From assembly GCF_900102905.1 (NCBI RefSeq), contig NZ_FNFV01000001.1:7501-71500 (forward strand): 64,000 nt of DNA. The letters run 5' to 3'. Below are positions 24,848-30,349 of this stretch, one piece after another. Position 1 is the stretch's first letter. Every line of letters starts with the position of its first letter. A program made the position numbers and the translations under genes. Below the pieces are notes generated by a model. It did no database searches. It saw nothing but the letters and a program-made list of their open reading frames with translations, and had not been told where the DNA came from. The stretch comes from Meinhardsimonia xiamenensis (GTDB lineage: Bacteria > Pseudomonadota > Alphaproteobacteria > Rhodobacterales > Rhodobacteraceae).

Positions 24848-25900
24848 ATGCCCCGAAAGGTGCCTGCCACGGTGGTGACCGGTTTTCTCGGCGCCGGCAA
24901 GACCACGCTCATTCGCCACATGCTCGCCAACGCCAACGGCCGGCGCATTGCGCTTGTCATCAACGAGTTCGGCGACCTCGGCGTCGATGGCGAAATCCTC
25001 AGGGGCTGCGGCATTGCCGGCTGCACCGAGGACGACATCATGGAGCTGTCGAACGGATGCATCTGCTGCACCGTGGCCGAGGATTTCATCCCCACCATGG
25101 AAAAGCTGCTCGAGCGCGCGACGCCCCCCGATCACATCGTGATCGAAACCTCGGGCCTTGCCCTGCCGCAGCCGCTCGTGCGCGCCTTCAACTGGCCGGG
25201 CATCTCAACCCGCGTGACGGTGGATGGCGTCGTGACCGTGGTCGACGGCAAGGCGGTGGCCGAAGGGCGCTTCGCCGCCGACGAGCGAGCGCTCGCCGCC
25301 CAGCGCGCCGCCGATGAAACGCTCGACCACGACACGCCGCTTGCCGAGCTTTTCGAGGATCAGCTTGCCTGCGCCGACATGATCGTGGTCAACAAGACCG
25401 ATCTTCTCTCGCCCGAAGAGGCGGAGGCTCTCGCCGCCGAACTCGCGACGAAGGCGCGCGAGGGCGTGCGGGTGGTGCGCGCGGCCCACGGGGCGCTGCC
25501 CGTCGAGGTGCTTCTCGGGATCGGCAGCGCGGCAGAGACCGACATGGACGCGCGCGGCGAGATCCACCACCACCACCATGACGACGAGGAAGACCACGAA
25601 CACGCCCACGGCCATGACGAGTTCGAAAGCTTCGTGGTCGAGCGGGGCGAGATCGCCGATGCATCCGCCTTCGCGCGGCAGGTGGCCGAGGTGATCCGCA
25701 CCCATGACATCCTGCGGCTCAAGGGCTTTGCCGCGGTGGCGGGCAAGCCGATGCGGCTGGCGCTGCAGGCGGTCGGCCCGCGTGTGGAAACCTATTTCGA
25801 CCGCCCCTTCGCCCCCGGCGAGGCACGCTCTGCGCGGCTTGTGGTGATCGGCGAGGCCGGGCTTGACCGCGCCGCGATCGAGGCGGCGCTCAGGGCATGA
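24848..25900 (+). CDS. cobW: CobW-type G3E GTPase / metallochaperone
   Basis: The ATG at 24848, with AAGGAG upstream, gives a 350-residue protein. It has the P-loop GFLGAGKTT (12-20), the metal-binding CxCC in SNGCICCTV (71-74), the GTPase NKTD box, and a His/Asp/Glu-rich insert (about 238-262, starting HHHHHDDEEDHEHAHGHDE) before the CobW C-terminal domain. CobW proteins deliver metal, here presumably Co2+ to the cobalt chelatase CobN encoded just downstream. Its stop overlaps the following acetyltransferase start (ATGA). Confidence 0.94.
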   Translation: MPRKVPATVVTGFLGAGKTTLIRHMLANANGRRIALVINEFGDLGVDGEILRGCGIAGCTEDDIMELSNGCICCTVAEDFIPTMEKLLERATPPDHIVIETSGLALPQPLVRAFNWPGISTRVTVDGVVTVVDGKAVAEGRFAADERALAAQRAADETLDHDTPLAELFEDQLACADMIVVNKTDLLSPEEAEALAAELATKAREGVRVVRAAHGALPVEVLLGIGSAAETDMDARGEIHHHHHDDEEDHEHAHGHDEFESFVVERGEIADASAFARQVAEVIRTHDILRLKGFAAVAGKPMRLALQAVGPRVETYFDRPFAPGEARSARLVVIGEAGLDRAAIEAALRA

Positions 25901-26352
25901 CGATCGAGGTGGCCCCCGGTGATCCGCGCGAGGCGCAGGCGCGGGCGCTCATCGAGGCCAGCCACGCGCTGATGGAGAGCCTGTTTCCACCTGAGGACAA
26001 CCACTACCTCGACATCGACGCGCTGGCCGCGCCCGACATCTCCTTCTTCGTGGCGAAGCGCGACGGCAAGACCGTGGGCTGCGCCGCGCTCGCCCGGCAC
26101 GCGGGCTATGGCGAGGTGAAGTCGATGTTCGTGGCCGAGGAGGCGCGGGGCCAGGGCGTGGCCGACGCGCTTCTCGCCCGCATCGAGGCGGAGGCGCGCG
26201 CCGCCGGCCTGCCCGTTCTGCGGCTCGAGACGGGCGACGCGCTCACCGCCGCGCTGCGCTTCTACGAGCGCGCAGGCTTCCGCCGGCGGGGCGCCTTCGG
26301 CGATTACCCCGAAGGCGGCACGAGCGTGTTCATGGAGAAGCGGTTGGGATGA
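25897..26352 (+). CDS. GNAT-family N-acetyltransferase
   Basis: The 151-residue protein has the GNAT fold landmarks: ISFFVAKRDGKTVGCAALARH (beta strands), the acetyl-CoA loop VAEEARGQGVADALLARIEAEARAAG (Q/R-x-x-G-x-A/G) and LRFYERAGFRRRGAFGDYPEG at the end. The substrate is unknown. It overlaps cobW by 4 bases and lies before cobN, so it is translationally tied to the cobalt genes; whether it acts in cobalamin metabolism is not known. It ends just ahead of a large palindromic element. Confidence 0.85.
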   Translation: MTIEVAPGDPREAQARALIEASHALMESLFPPEDNHYLDIDALAAPDISFFVAKRDGKTVGCAALARHAGYGEVKSMFVAEEARGQGVADALLARIEAEARAAGLPVLRLETGDALTAALRFYERAGFRRRGAFGDYPEGGTSVFMEKRLG

Positions 26353-26388
26353 GCGCATTGGGCTACCGCGCGAACAACCGACGTTTCG

Positions 26389-26472
26389 CCCGGCGCCACG
26401 CGCCGGGCAGCGCCCGACCCGCCCCCCACGGGGCGGGCGCTTCACGCCCACCCCGCCGGGTCGGGCGCTGCC
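26389..26472. repeat. Palindromic element, copy A (intergenic, upstream of cobN)
   Basis: 26406-26420 (GGCAGCGCCCGACCC) and 26458-26472 are a perfect 15-bp inverted repeat with a GC-rich centre that can itself fold. Immediately to the left, 26389-26395 and 26401-26407 form a second 7-bp perfect hairpin. An inverted copy with the same two-hairpin order is found within cobN at 28930-29017. The element ends about 28 bases before the cobN start. Confidence 0.8.
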
Positions 26473-26500
26473 TTCTGTGGCGGAAGCCGGAGGGAAGCTG

Positions 26501-29500
26501 ATGCACCTGCTCGCCGCCACGCCGGGCACGATCGATGACGGCTCCGAGCCGGTTGATCTCGGCCAAAGCCCGGCCGATGTCGTGTTCATCTCGGCCGCCG
26601 ATACCGAGCTTGCCGCGCTCTCGGAGGCGCGCGCCGAGATGGCCGACGCGCCGAGCCTGCGCCTTGCGAGCCTGAACCACCTGCGCCACCCGATGTCGGT
26701 GGACCTGCACCTTGACAGCTGCGCCACCCGCTCGCGGCTCGTCATCGCGCGCATCCTCGGCGGGCGCGGCTACTGGCCCTACGGGGTGGAGCAATACGCC
26801 GCCCGGCTTGCGGAAGCGGGCGTGCCGCTCGCGCTCCTGCCCGGCGACGACCGCGAAGATGCCGAGCTGCGCGAGCTCTCCACCGTTTCTGACAGCGACT
26901 ATGACGCGCTCTGGGCCTATCTCGTCGAGGGCGGGCCGGAGAATGCGGCAAACTTCCTTGCCCACGCCGCGCACATGCTTGAGCGCACCCGCCCCGCCCC
27001 GCCGGTGGCAAAGCCGCTGTTGCGCGCTGGCGTCTACTGGCCGGGCGCCGGGGTGGCCGATCTCGACACCGCGCGCGCGAACTGGCGCGAGGGCGCGCCG
27101 GTGGTGCCGGTGATCTTCTACCGCGCGCTGGTGCAGGGGGCGGGGCTCAACCCGATCAACCGGCTGACGCGGGCGCTGATGCGCGCGGGGCTCAACCCCC
27201 TGCCCGTCTTCGTCGCTTCGCTGAAGGATCCGCTCTCGGCGGCGACGCTTGCTCGGCTCTTCACCGAGGCGCCGCCCGAGGTCATCCTCAACGCCACCGC
27301 CTTTGCCGTAGGCACGCCGGGGGAGGATCCGGCCGCATCCGGCAACCCCCTCGCCGCGCCCGAGGCCAATGGCGCGCCGGTGTTCCAGCTTGTGCTCTCG
27401 GGCGGCACCGAAGCCGCGTGGGAAGAGGGCACGGCCGGCCTCTCGGCACGCGACATCGCAATGAACGTCGCGCTGCCGGAGATCGACGGGCGGATCCTTT
27501 CCCGCGCCATCAGCTTCAAGGGCGAGGCCTTCTTCGACGAGGCCACGCAATGCTCCATCGCGAGCTATCGCGCGCGCGGCGACCGGGTCGATTTCGTCGC
27601 GCAACTCGCGGCGAACTGGGCGCGGCTCAGGCGCACGCCGCCCGCCGAGCGGCGCGTGGCGCTGGTGCTCGCCAACTACCCCAATCGCGACGGGCGGCTT
27701 GCCAATGGCGTCGGGCTCGACACGCCGGCCTCGACGGTGGCCGTCGTGCAGGCGCTGGCCGGCGCCGGCTACCGGGTGACCGGCGCACCCGAGACCGCCG
27801 AGGCGCTGATGGACGCGATCCTCGCCGGGCCGACGAACTGGCTCACCGACCGCGCCGAGCGCAAGGGCGGGGTGGAGCTTTCCTACGCCGACTACCAGAT
27901 CGACTATGGCCAGCTTCCCTGGGAGCTGCGCCGCGACATCGAGGCCCGCTGGGGCCCGCCCGAGGCCGACCCCTTCTTCGAGCCCGGCGAAGTTGATTGC
28001 GGGCGCTTCAAGCTCTCGGTGCTCGCGTTCGGCAATGTCGTGGTCGGCATCCAGCCTGCGCGCGGCTACAACATCGACCCTTCCGACACCTACCACGCGC
28101 CCGATCTCGTCCCGCCCCACAACTACCTCGCCTTCTATTTCTGGCTACGCCACCAGTTCCGGGCCCATGCCATCGTGCACATGGGCAAGCACGGCAATCT
28201 CGAATGGCTGCCGGGCAAGGCGGTGGCGCTGTCGGCCGGGTGCTGGCCCGAGGCGGTGCTGGGGCCGCTGCCGCACATCTACCCCTTCATCGTCAACGAC
28301 CCCGGCGAGGGCACGCAGGCCAAGCGCCGCGCGCAGGCCGTCATCATCGACCACCTCACGCCGCCCCTGACCCGCGCCGAAAGCTACGGGCCGCTGCGCG
28401 ATCTCGAAGCGCTGGTGGACGAATATTACGAGGCCGCGGGCGTTGACCCGCGCCGGGTGGAGCGGCTGCGGAGCGAGATCCTCTCGCTGGCCGCGGCCAC
28501 CGGCATCGACGCCGACGCGGGGCTCGCGGGGGACGACAGCGAGTCGGACCTCGCCAGGCTCGACGCCTGGCTGTGCGAGTTGAAGGAAGCGCAGATCCGC
28601 GACGGGCTGCACGTCTTCGGCGCCTCGCCCGAAGGCCGGCTCGAGCGCGACCTTCTGATGGCGCTCGCGCGCATCCCGCGCGGGGCCGGAGAAGGGGGCG
28701 ATGCCTCGCTGACGCGGGCATTGGCAGATGACCTTGGCCTCGGCTTCGACCCGCTCGACTGCGACATGGCCGCGCCGTGGCAGGGGCCACGGCCCGATGT
28801 GCTCGAGGCGGTGAGTGGTGATGCCTGGCGGACGCACGGAGACACGGTGGAGCGGCTGGAGCTCCTGGCGCTCGAGCTGATCGAGGCGGAGGGTATGCCC
28901 GACAACGCCAACGCAGCAAACCATACGGAGGCCAGCGCCCGGCCCGAGGGGTGGGCGCAGCAGCGCCCGCCCCTGGGGGGCGGGTCGGGCGCTGGCCGGT
29001 TCGCGCGCGAACCGGCCGGAAAACCAAACATCGCCGCGCCCGGTCCGGCCAGCACCGCCGTCCTCACCCGGCTCCGCGAGCACCTCGCTCCCGCCTTGCG
29101 CGCCTGCGGCCCGGCCGAGACGGCCGGACTCCTGACCGCGCTCGACGGCCGCTTCGTCGCCCCCGGCCTCTCCGGCGCACCCACGCGAGGCCGGCCGGAC
29201 GTTCTGCCCACCGGGCGCAACTTCTTCTCGGTCGACAGCCGTGCCGTGCCCACGCCCACGGCCTGGGCGCTGGGCTGGAAATCGGCCAATCTCCTCATCG
29301 AGAAGCACCTGCAGACCCACGGCGACTGGCCGCGCGCGATGCTCGTCACCGCCTGGGGCACCTCCAACATGCGCACCGGGGGCGACGACATCGCACAGTG
29401 CCTCGCGCTGATGGGCGTGCGCCCCACGTGGGACGCCGCCAACCGCCGTGTCACCGGCTTCGAGATCATCCCCCATACTGCCCTCGGGCGACCGCGCGTC

Positions 29501-30349
29501 GATGTCACGCTGCGCATCTCCGGCTTCTTCCGCGATGCCTTCCCCGGCCTCGTGGCGCTCGTCGATTCGGCCGCGCGCGCGGTGATGGCGCTCGACGAGC
29601 CCGAAGACGTGAACCCCGCCGCCGCCCGCGCCCGCGCCGAAGGCGAGGCGGGGCGCTTCCGCGTCTTCGGCGCCAAGCCCGGCGCCTATGGCGCGGGGCT
29701 GCAGGCGCTGATCGACGAGCGCATCTGGTCGGACCGCGCCGATCTCGCCGAGGCGTATCTCGAATGGGGCGGCTACGCCTATGGCGCCGCGGCCGAGGGC
29801 ACGCCCGCGCGCGCCGCGCTCGAGACCCGGCTCGGGCAGGTGGAGGCCATCGTCCAGAACCAGGACAACCGCGAGCACGACTTGCTCGATTCGGACGACT
29901 ACTATCAGTTCGAGGGCGGCGCGGCGGCGGCGGTGGCCACGCTGCAGGGCCGCGAGAGGCCCGTCTATCACAACGACCACTCCCGCCCCGAGCGCCCCGT
30001 CATCCGCACGCTGGAGGAGGAGATCGCCCGCGTCGTCCGCTCCCGCGTGGTCAATCCCAAATGGATCGAGGGGGTGAAGCGCCACGGCTACAAGGGCGCC
30101 TTCGAGATGGCGGCGACGGTGGACTATCTCTTCGCCTTCGCCGCCACCACGCGCGCGGTGAAGAACCACCACTTCGACCTCGTCCATGCCGCCTATCTGG
30201 AGGACGAGGACACCCGCAGCTTCATCGCCGAGCACAACCCCGCCGCCCTGCGCGAGATCGCCGACCGGCTCGCCGAGGCCATCGACCGCGGACTCTGGCA
30301 GCCGCGCTCGAACAGCGCGCGGCAGATCATCGACAGGCTTCGGGGCTGA
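26501..30349 (+). CDS. cobN: Aerobic cobaltochelatase large subunit CobN
   Basis: The ATG at 26501 has GGAGGG upstream and yields the family start MHLLAATPG; a GTG eight codons earlier is less likely. The 1282-residue protein is the large subunit of the ATP-dependent chelatase that inserts cobalt into hydrogenobyrinic acid a,c-diamide, working with CobS and CobT, which are not in this window. Conserved blocks include HMGKHGNLEWLPGK, PHIYPFIVNDPGEGTQAKRR, LPTGRNFFSVDSRAVPTPTAW, WGTSNMRTGGDDIAQCLALMG and the C-terminal AFAATTRAVKNHHFDL. Residues about 810-839 are encoded by an inserted palindromic repeat (SARPEGWAQQRPPLGGGSGAGRFAREPAG), in frame and in a linker region, so the protein is probably still active. 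Confidence 0.96.
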   Translation: MHLLAATPGTIDDGSEPVDLGQSPADVVFISAADTELAALSEARAEMADAPSLRLASLNHLRHPMSVDLHLDSCATRSRLVIARILGGRGYWPYGVEQYAARLAEAGVPLALLPGDDREDAELRELSTVSDSDYDALWAYLVEGGPENAANFLAHAAHMLERTRPAPPVAKPLLRAGVYWPGAGVADLDTARANWREGAPVVPVIFYRALVQGAGLNPINRLTRALMRAGLNPLPVFVASLKDPLSAATLARLFTEAPPEVILNATAFAVGTPGEDPAASGNPLAAPEANGAPVFQLVLSGGTEAAWEEGTAGLSARDIAMNVALPEIDGRILSRAISFKGEAFFDEATQCSIASYRARGDRVDFVAQLAANWARLRRTPPAERRVALVLANYPNRDGRLANGVGLDTPASTVAVVQALAGAGYRVTGAPETAEALMDAILAGPTNWLTDRAERKGGVELSYADYQIDYGQLPWELRRDIEARWGPPEADPFFEPGEVDCGRFKLSVLAFGNVVVGIQPARGYNIDPSDTYHAPDLVPPHNYLAFYFWLRHQFRAHAIVHMGKHGNLEWLPGKAVALSAGCWPEAVLGPLPHIYPFIVNDPGEGTQAKRRAQAVIIDHLTPPLTRAESYGPLRDLEALVDEYYEAAGVDPRRVERLRSEILSLAAATGIDADAGLAGDDSESDLARLDAWLCELKEAQIRDGLHVFGASPEGRLERDLLMALARIPRGAGEGGDASLTRALADDLGLGFDPLDCDMAAPWQGPRPDVLEAVSGDAWRTHGDTVERLELLALELIEAEGMPDNANAANHTEASARPEGWAQQRPPLGGGSGAGRFAREPAGKPNIAAPGPASTAVLTRLREHLAPALRACGPAETAGLLTALDGRFVAPGLSGAPTRGRPDVLPTGRNFFSVDSRAVPTPTAWALGWKSANLLIEKHLQTHGDWPRAMLVTAWGTSNMRTGGDDIAQCLALMGVRPTWDAANRRVTGFEIIPHTALGRPRVDVTLRISGFFRDAFPGLVALVDSAARAVMALDEPEDVNPAAARARAEGEAGRFRVFGAKPGAYGAGLQALIDERIWSDRADLAEAYLEWGGYAYGAAAEGTPARAALETRLGQVEAIVQNQDNREHDLLDSDDYYQFEGGAAAAVATLQGRERPVYHNDHSRPERPVIRTLEEEIARVVRSRVVNPKWIEGVKRHGYKGAFEMAATVDYLFAFAATTRAVKNHHFDLVHAAYLEDEDTRSFIAEHNPAALREIADRLAEAIDRGLWQPRSNSARQIIDRLRG
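28930..29017. repeat. Palindromic element, copy B, in frame inside cobN
   Basis: 28930-28945 and 28982-28997 are 16-base arms of an inverted repeat with one mismatch. 28994-29017 is a perfect 24-bp palindrome (centre CGCGCG). Reverse-complemented, 28930-28997 aligns with 26406-26472 at about 60 of 70 columns by hand, including the centre of the hairpin. Its length keeps the cobN frame open and encodes a Pro/Gly/Arg-rich peptide. Confidence 0.82.

Follow-up and report, generated by a model that had tools for sequence, protein, structure and literature searches.

The cobN gene of Meinhardsimonia xiamenensis is preceded by a palindromic sequence, a similar copy of which lies inverted and in frame within cobN itself. 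This raises the question of whether the two copies (A and B) belong to a mobile element that is tolerated inside an intact protein-coding gene, or whether they reflect RNA function or merely the GC-rich composition of the locus. Based on an analysis of the window, i.e. the whole 64,000-nucleotide stretch of DNA containing cobN, and of related genomes, we propose that A and B belong to a non-autonomous, REP/MITE-like family of mobile palindromes found across the Rhodobacteraceae, which resembles the Rickettsia palindromic elements (RPEs) in behaviour. We place the probability of this reading at about 0.8, with mobility being read from genome comparisons. It draws on a conserved two-hairpin unit, dispersed copies in both orientations, presence-absence differences between strains, species and genera, gene-end placement without divergent spacers, in-frame inserts in cobN and xdhC, and two-sided changes in base pairing.

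A two-hairpin unit in and upstream of cobN

Copy A and the reverse complement of positions 28930-28997 in copy B align with 88% identity across 69 bp (E 7e-18, search within the window), in line with the approximately 60 of 70 matching columns given in a first-pass annotation of this DNA. Single-strand folds of both copies were better than 200 of 200 dinucleotide shuffles (z about -5). The annotation had described a perfect 15-bp inverted repeat in copy A, which is indeed perfect but 16 bp long, and had correctly placed an additional hairpin (H1) on the same relative side of the main palindrome (P) in A and B. Including H1 extends its 70-base unit to 88-91 bp (Table 1).

Table 1. Coordinates of the repeat copies and neighbouring genes in the window.
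Feature	Position	Strand	Description
GNAT acetyltransferase gene	25897..26352	+	upstream of copy A
Copy A (H1 + P)	26387..26475	+	intergenic, between the GNAT acetyltransferase gene and cobN
H1 hairpin, copy A	26388..26408	+	GCCCGGCGCCACGCGCCGGGC, arms GCCCGGCGC-CAC-GCGCCGGGC; based on fold and sequence
P palindrome, copy A	26406..26472	+	16-bp perfect outer arms 26406-26421 / 26457-26472, inner hairpin between them
cobN (cobaltochelatase subunit CobN)	26501..30349	+	intact ORF; Pfam PF02514 at residues 138-1271; PDB 9uk9_A match; copy B in linker
Copy B of the unit	28930..29017	-	in frame within cobN, opposite orientation to A; ~29-30 codons
P palindrome, copy B	28930..28997	-	outer arms 28930-28946 / 28981-28997, 17 bp with one mismatch
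H1 hairpin, copy B	28996..29015	-	CCGGTTCGCGCGCGAACCGG; fully paired, sequence unlike other copies in this genome

A search of the 3.1-Mb M. xiamenensis genome with copy A recovered approximately 25 non-self copies on many contigs (E below 1e-4, best 1e-26), and the family comprises ~27 copies in this genome. The consensus thus recurs elsewhere in the genome, a check that the annotation had set in advance, and its description of a two-hairpin palindrome present in both orientations without breaking the cobN frame holds for A, B and the family in this genome. Alignment of 22 full-length copies defines the unit of ~88-91 bp as a 20-nt hairpin H1 (CGCCCGGC-CGTCA-GGCCGGGC) followed by a 68-nt palindrome P (AGCGCCCGACCCGCCCCCCACGGGGCGGGCGCTTCGC.GCCCACCCCGTCGGGCCGGGCGCTGCCCTT), with sharp edges and no conservation of the flanks beyond the unit. 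Variants include three short copies that lack the middle of P (L024, L025 and L027) and a half copy (L030). Another copy (L013, G000:C11:112922-113016) has a 29-bp insert in the P loop, which itself contains a small hairpin (GCACCAAAGGTGC). Units have 5.0 of six reading frames open, compared with 4.1 of six for random segments of the window. None of 4227 Rfam covariance models matched positions 26000-29500 of the window at E values up to 1, and a literature search that reached few subscription journals returned no published description of the repeat. Judged by Rfam and this literature, the palindromes apparently form an undescribed family of their own, and nothing in these sources contradicts the annotation's suggestion to that effect.

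Within CobN, copy B corresponds to residues ~819-848 (GTG numbering) and not to 810-839 as first annotated. The best solved CobN structure (9uk9_A) matches residues 1-797 and 851-1279, with nine residues between these segments versus 53 here; of the 44 extra linker residues (132 nt), the repeat unit supplies ~29-30. CobN was matched in 209 genomes of the family, and in most of these the insert is absent and the two flanking pieces nearly abut, so that the expectation that orthologues without the DNA repeat also lack the peptide is upheld. A similar peptide was found only in orthologues from the sister genus g77, where the DNA repeat is present too. Tolerance of the insertion may be attributed to the variable length of this linker, a net insert that is a multiple of three, and a GC-rich unit that is nearly free of stop codons in six frames. 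Copy B would be translated as a stretch of ~30 residues rich in Pro, Gly and Arg, which is probably disordered.

The g77 genomes further indicate that the orientation of the cobN element is variable. In species G076 it sits in this linker and is oriented like copy B, whereas it is inverted relative to G076 in G313 and G315 (L250 and L251 versus L032; 98% and 93% identity over 88-89 bp). The element is thus inverted in two of three species, and the reading frame is open in both orientations. Outside the linker, CobN identity is 95% between G076 and G315, 93% between G076 and G313, and 81-83% between g77 and M. xiamenensis. This grouping of CobN sequences would imply two or more changes of orientation, or else re-insertion of the element. 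A compact loop is common to the cobN copies of G313 and G076 but missing from other G313 copies, which favours flipping over fresh insertion. Given that the linker flanks differ among the g77 copies, and that the G313 and G315 assemblies are fragmented (contamination 8% and 4%, respectively), an in-place flip is favoured only tentatively. The cobN linker of G066 (L033) contains a different insert of three unrelated hairpins (GATGTCCGGATCGGACATC; GGAAGCTGCGCAGCTTCC; GCAGAATTCG..CGAATTCTGC), which marks this linker as a possible hotspot for inserts rich in hairpins.

Distribution, insertion polymorphism and placement

A DNA search with the 91-nt consensus matched 17 of 24 genomes of the same family and none of 16 genomes from other families of the class. 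Using a covariance model, we detected the unit in at least 129 of 296 sampled Rhodobacteraceae genera; copy counts from this model are lower bounds, as at most 14 candidates were scored per genome. All exact matches with names are to Rhodobacteraceae in the broad sense or else to alphaproteobacterial bins, and the unit is also present on plasmids of Phaeobacter, Leisingera, Ruegeria and Sulfitobacter. Copy number varies between congeners, from at least 40 in G236 to 6 in G312.

Comparison of strains revealed occupied and empty sites. On the 108-kb plasmid of Leisingera caerulea, one site carries the element in strains S185 and S216, whereas S141, M561 and L. aquaemixtae have the empty allele. 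The flanks are 88-95% identical between the occupied and empty alleles, and the net insert is 132 nt, of which about 25 and 30 nt lie outside the unit. An in-frame copy within a second coding sequence was identified in xdhC of Leisingera (L133, L138 and L141), where it is polymorphic among L. caerulea strains: the insert measures 38 codons in S185 and L. aquaemixtae and 36 in M561, and is absent from S216, S141 and other Leisingera. Across these comparisons, net insertions amounted to 108-132 nt or spacers were replaced, and no clean insertion of 88-91 bp was observed; the size of the net inserts suggests that the true mobile unit may exceed the conserved core. Neither G236 versus G312, in which spacers are replaced wholesale, nor plasmid sites b and c of L. 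aquaemixtae, which represent alternative spacer alleles and no simple insertion, provided clean boundaries.

Two further loci vary between strains. On the 175-kb plasmids of L. aquaemixtae, the element is located at the 3' end of an aminotransferase gene in opposite orientations between strains (L130 and L131 versus L136, L149 and L186), and the surrounding spacer sequence also differs. In the Phaeobacter inhibens rfb operon (L134, L147 and L148), the element lies between rfbD and rfbB and adjoins a gene for a metal-dependent hydrolase, most of which has been lost by deletion in P66 and similar strains; strain DSM 17395 does not have the element.

Placement relative to genes was assessed for the 27 M. 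xiamenensis copies with a simple codon-usage gene caller. All except the cobN copy (26/27) are intergenic, with 20 in spacers between unidirectional genes, six between convergent genes and none between divergent genes. By comparison, 12 of 32 spacers over 20 bp in the window are divergent, for which a simple binomial gives 0/26 a probability of about 4e-6. In the unidirectional spacers, H1 is upstream in nine copies and the orientation is reversed in 11. REPs likewise occur mostly between unidirectional or convergent genes, with some inside genes (Di Nocera 2013, PMC3733652), and the spacer placement seen here corresponds to this pattern. Persisting insertions would reside mostly in spacers that are probably transcribed, where very stable RNA hairpins would form. 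The units were rejected as intrinsic terminators, with TTTT following the unit in one of 23 copies and no terminator-like site at copy A.

Mobilisation, base-pair covariation and alternative explanations

The ends of the unit were inspected for traces of transposition. Several copies in G236 (L222-L241) form the centre of a ~178-bp repeat with imperfect terminal inverted repeats (TAGAGCATCGTYCTAAAAA), and more than 15 copies in G313 (L267-L285, L301-L318) are enlarged by ~60 bp in the loop and have flanks in common (TAGTCACCTGAATCC...), for which terminal inverted repeats with imperfect outer ends are suggested. Such an arrangement, with the unit amid larger repeats whose outer ends are imperfect inverted repeats, would point to a MITE mobilised by a cut-and-paste transposase. 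Around the M. xiamenensis copies, no terminal inverted repeats were detectable, and a scan for target-site duplications of 2-8 nt at many boundary offsets yielded no k-mer that clearly stood out, the best candidates (k = 5-6, P 0.03-0.05, several k tested) all falling within the palindrome arms. We hypothesise that a host- or IS-encoded enzyme, which is not part of the element, mobilises the copies in trans.

Because the M. xiamenensis copies are too alike for covariation analysis, 39 copies from more than 30 genomes were aligned. The structure was set by hand from single-sequence folds, since RNAalifold, applied to the first alignment, gave a consensus in which H1 pairs with the distal P arm. 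In this alignment, which was fitted to the model structure and is therefore biased towards pairing, 96.5% of pair cells are paired. Changes on both sides occur in 11 of 25 pairs and in 44 cells, compared with 8.9 +/- 2.4 cells in shuffles (0/500) and five or fewer in slid structures, whereas changes on one side account for only six cells, with almost no G-T intermediates. The scarcity of G-U intermediates suggests that the symmetry is maintained at the DNA level.

These observations bear on three alternative explanations. Chance similarity in a GC-rich region, where a palindrome of such composition folds easily, has a negligible probability: it is refuted by the ~25 further copies in this genome, the DNA matches in the same family and the detection in at least 129 genera. 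More plausible, but still improbable, is a fixed functional RNA element, i.e. a bidirectional terminator, mRNA stabiliser or attenuator spread by recombination and kept by selection on transcripts, with the cobN copy being incidental. It would account for the avoidance of divergent spacers, the proximity to gene ends, the very stable folds and the covariation. However, a T-run follows the stem in a single copy and copy A has no terminator-like site, copies also occur within coding regions, copy number differs more than six-fold between congeners, and both orientations are nearly equally frequent in unidirectional spacers. Moreover, RNA-level selection should leave more G-U intermediates than the excess of both-side over one-side changes would allow.

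Mobilisation as a GTAG- or CGTC-type REP by a RAYT (Y1 HUH transposase) via single-strand hairpins would fit the REP-like placement (Di Nocera 2013, PMC3733652), the hairpin architecture and the both-side changes, which would be consistent with a hairpin substrate of single-stranded DNA. We nevertheless consider it very unlikely, as Y1_Tnp (PF01797) is absent from the M. xiamenensis genome and from most high-copy carriers, including G236 with its at least 40 copies (also G246, G219, G210, G024, G253, G311 and G012; G313 lay outside the scan), the GTAG tag occurs at neither end of any of 23 units, and CGTC is located near an end in only 2-3 of 23, with stems that start with G-C pairs. We thus prefer the interpretation as a non-autonomous mobile palindrome family. 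Within it, we tentatively raise the possibility, to which we give well below even odds, that dyad symmetry is preserved at the DNA rather than the RNA level through hairpin-templated copying between arms or a single-stranded DNA hairpin substrate of the mobiliser, either of which could alter both arms without passing through G-T intermediates. By this process, or through repeated re-insertion at one hotspot, the unit might be flipped in place, at least twice in cobN of close relatives, each time rewriting the 30-residue linker while keeping the frame.

Relationship to known repeat systems

The family operates in a manner similar to REPs, MITEs and RPEs, but lacks the defining tags and enzyme association of REPs. 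RPEs are ~150 bp in length and nearly half of them are genic (Ogata et al. 2000, 2002, as summarised in PMC10969869), and a CGTC tag has been reported for them (PMC3733652). The likeness lies in a dispersed alphaproteobacterial palindrome that occurs between genes and in frame within unrelated genes, where it is read as an extra peptide. It differs in that only one of 27 M. xiamenensis copies is genic and in its unit of 88-91 bp, very high GC content, H1+P architecture and absence of the CGTC tag. The RPE analogy drawn in the first-pass annotation therefore stands for behaviour, given the in-frame copies in cobN and xdhC, but does not extend to membership, since size, composition and the CGTC tag of RPE-4 and RPE-6 differ. 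Homology to an RPE family, judged from composition and size by description, is unlikely.

REPs are single hairpins of 20-40 bp with an unpaired tag, the CGTC type being mostly alphaproteobacterial and without a dedicated transposase (Di Nocera et al. 2013, PMC3733652). The present family is likewise a hairpin repeat found chiefly in unidirectional and convergent spacers with some genic copies, but is a tagless, 88-91-bp composite of two unequal palindromes, and its stems begin with G-C pairs, in contrast to the 8-9-bp stem beginning with A-T pairs of the CGTC superfamily. With bacterial MITEs (ERIC, NEMIS, RUP, Nezha, QMITE and others) it has in common that it is non-autonomous, hairpin-forming, multicopy, geneless and polymorphic in presence, and that in several G236 copies, and as suggested for G313, it centres larger repeats with imperfect terminal inverted repeats. 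Unlike in MITEs, the conserved part is the centre and not the ends, and M. xiamenensis copies have no detectable terminal inverted repeats or target duplication.

RIME and Bru-RS of rhizobia and Brucella are ~100-bp palindromic intergenic repeats, RIME also being a two-palindrome unit. CIR of Caulobacter is named among alphaproteobacterial intergenic repeats (PMC10969869). All three resemble the present family, compared here by description, as alphaproteobacterial intergenic palindromes of ~100 bp. However, CIR is linked to CcrM (GANTC) sites, and identity with CIR was ruled out as GANTC occurs in none of 23 units.

In-frame palindromic insertions have so far been regarded as peculiar to Rickettsia and a small number of genomes rich in REPs. 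The Rhodobacteraceae in which they occur here, such as Phaeobacter, Leisingera and Ruegeria, are free-living, well sequenced and genetically tractable, and provide occupied and empty alleles at the strain level. Such alleles make the mobiliser, the upkeep of the palindrome and the tolerance of proteins to inserts testable, and a class of GC-rich hairpins left unannotated in roseobacter genomes is explained by the family.
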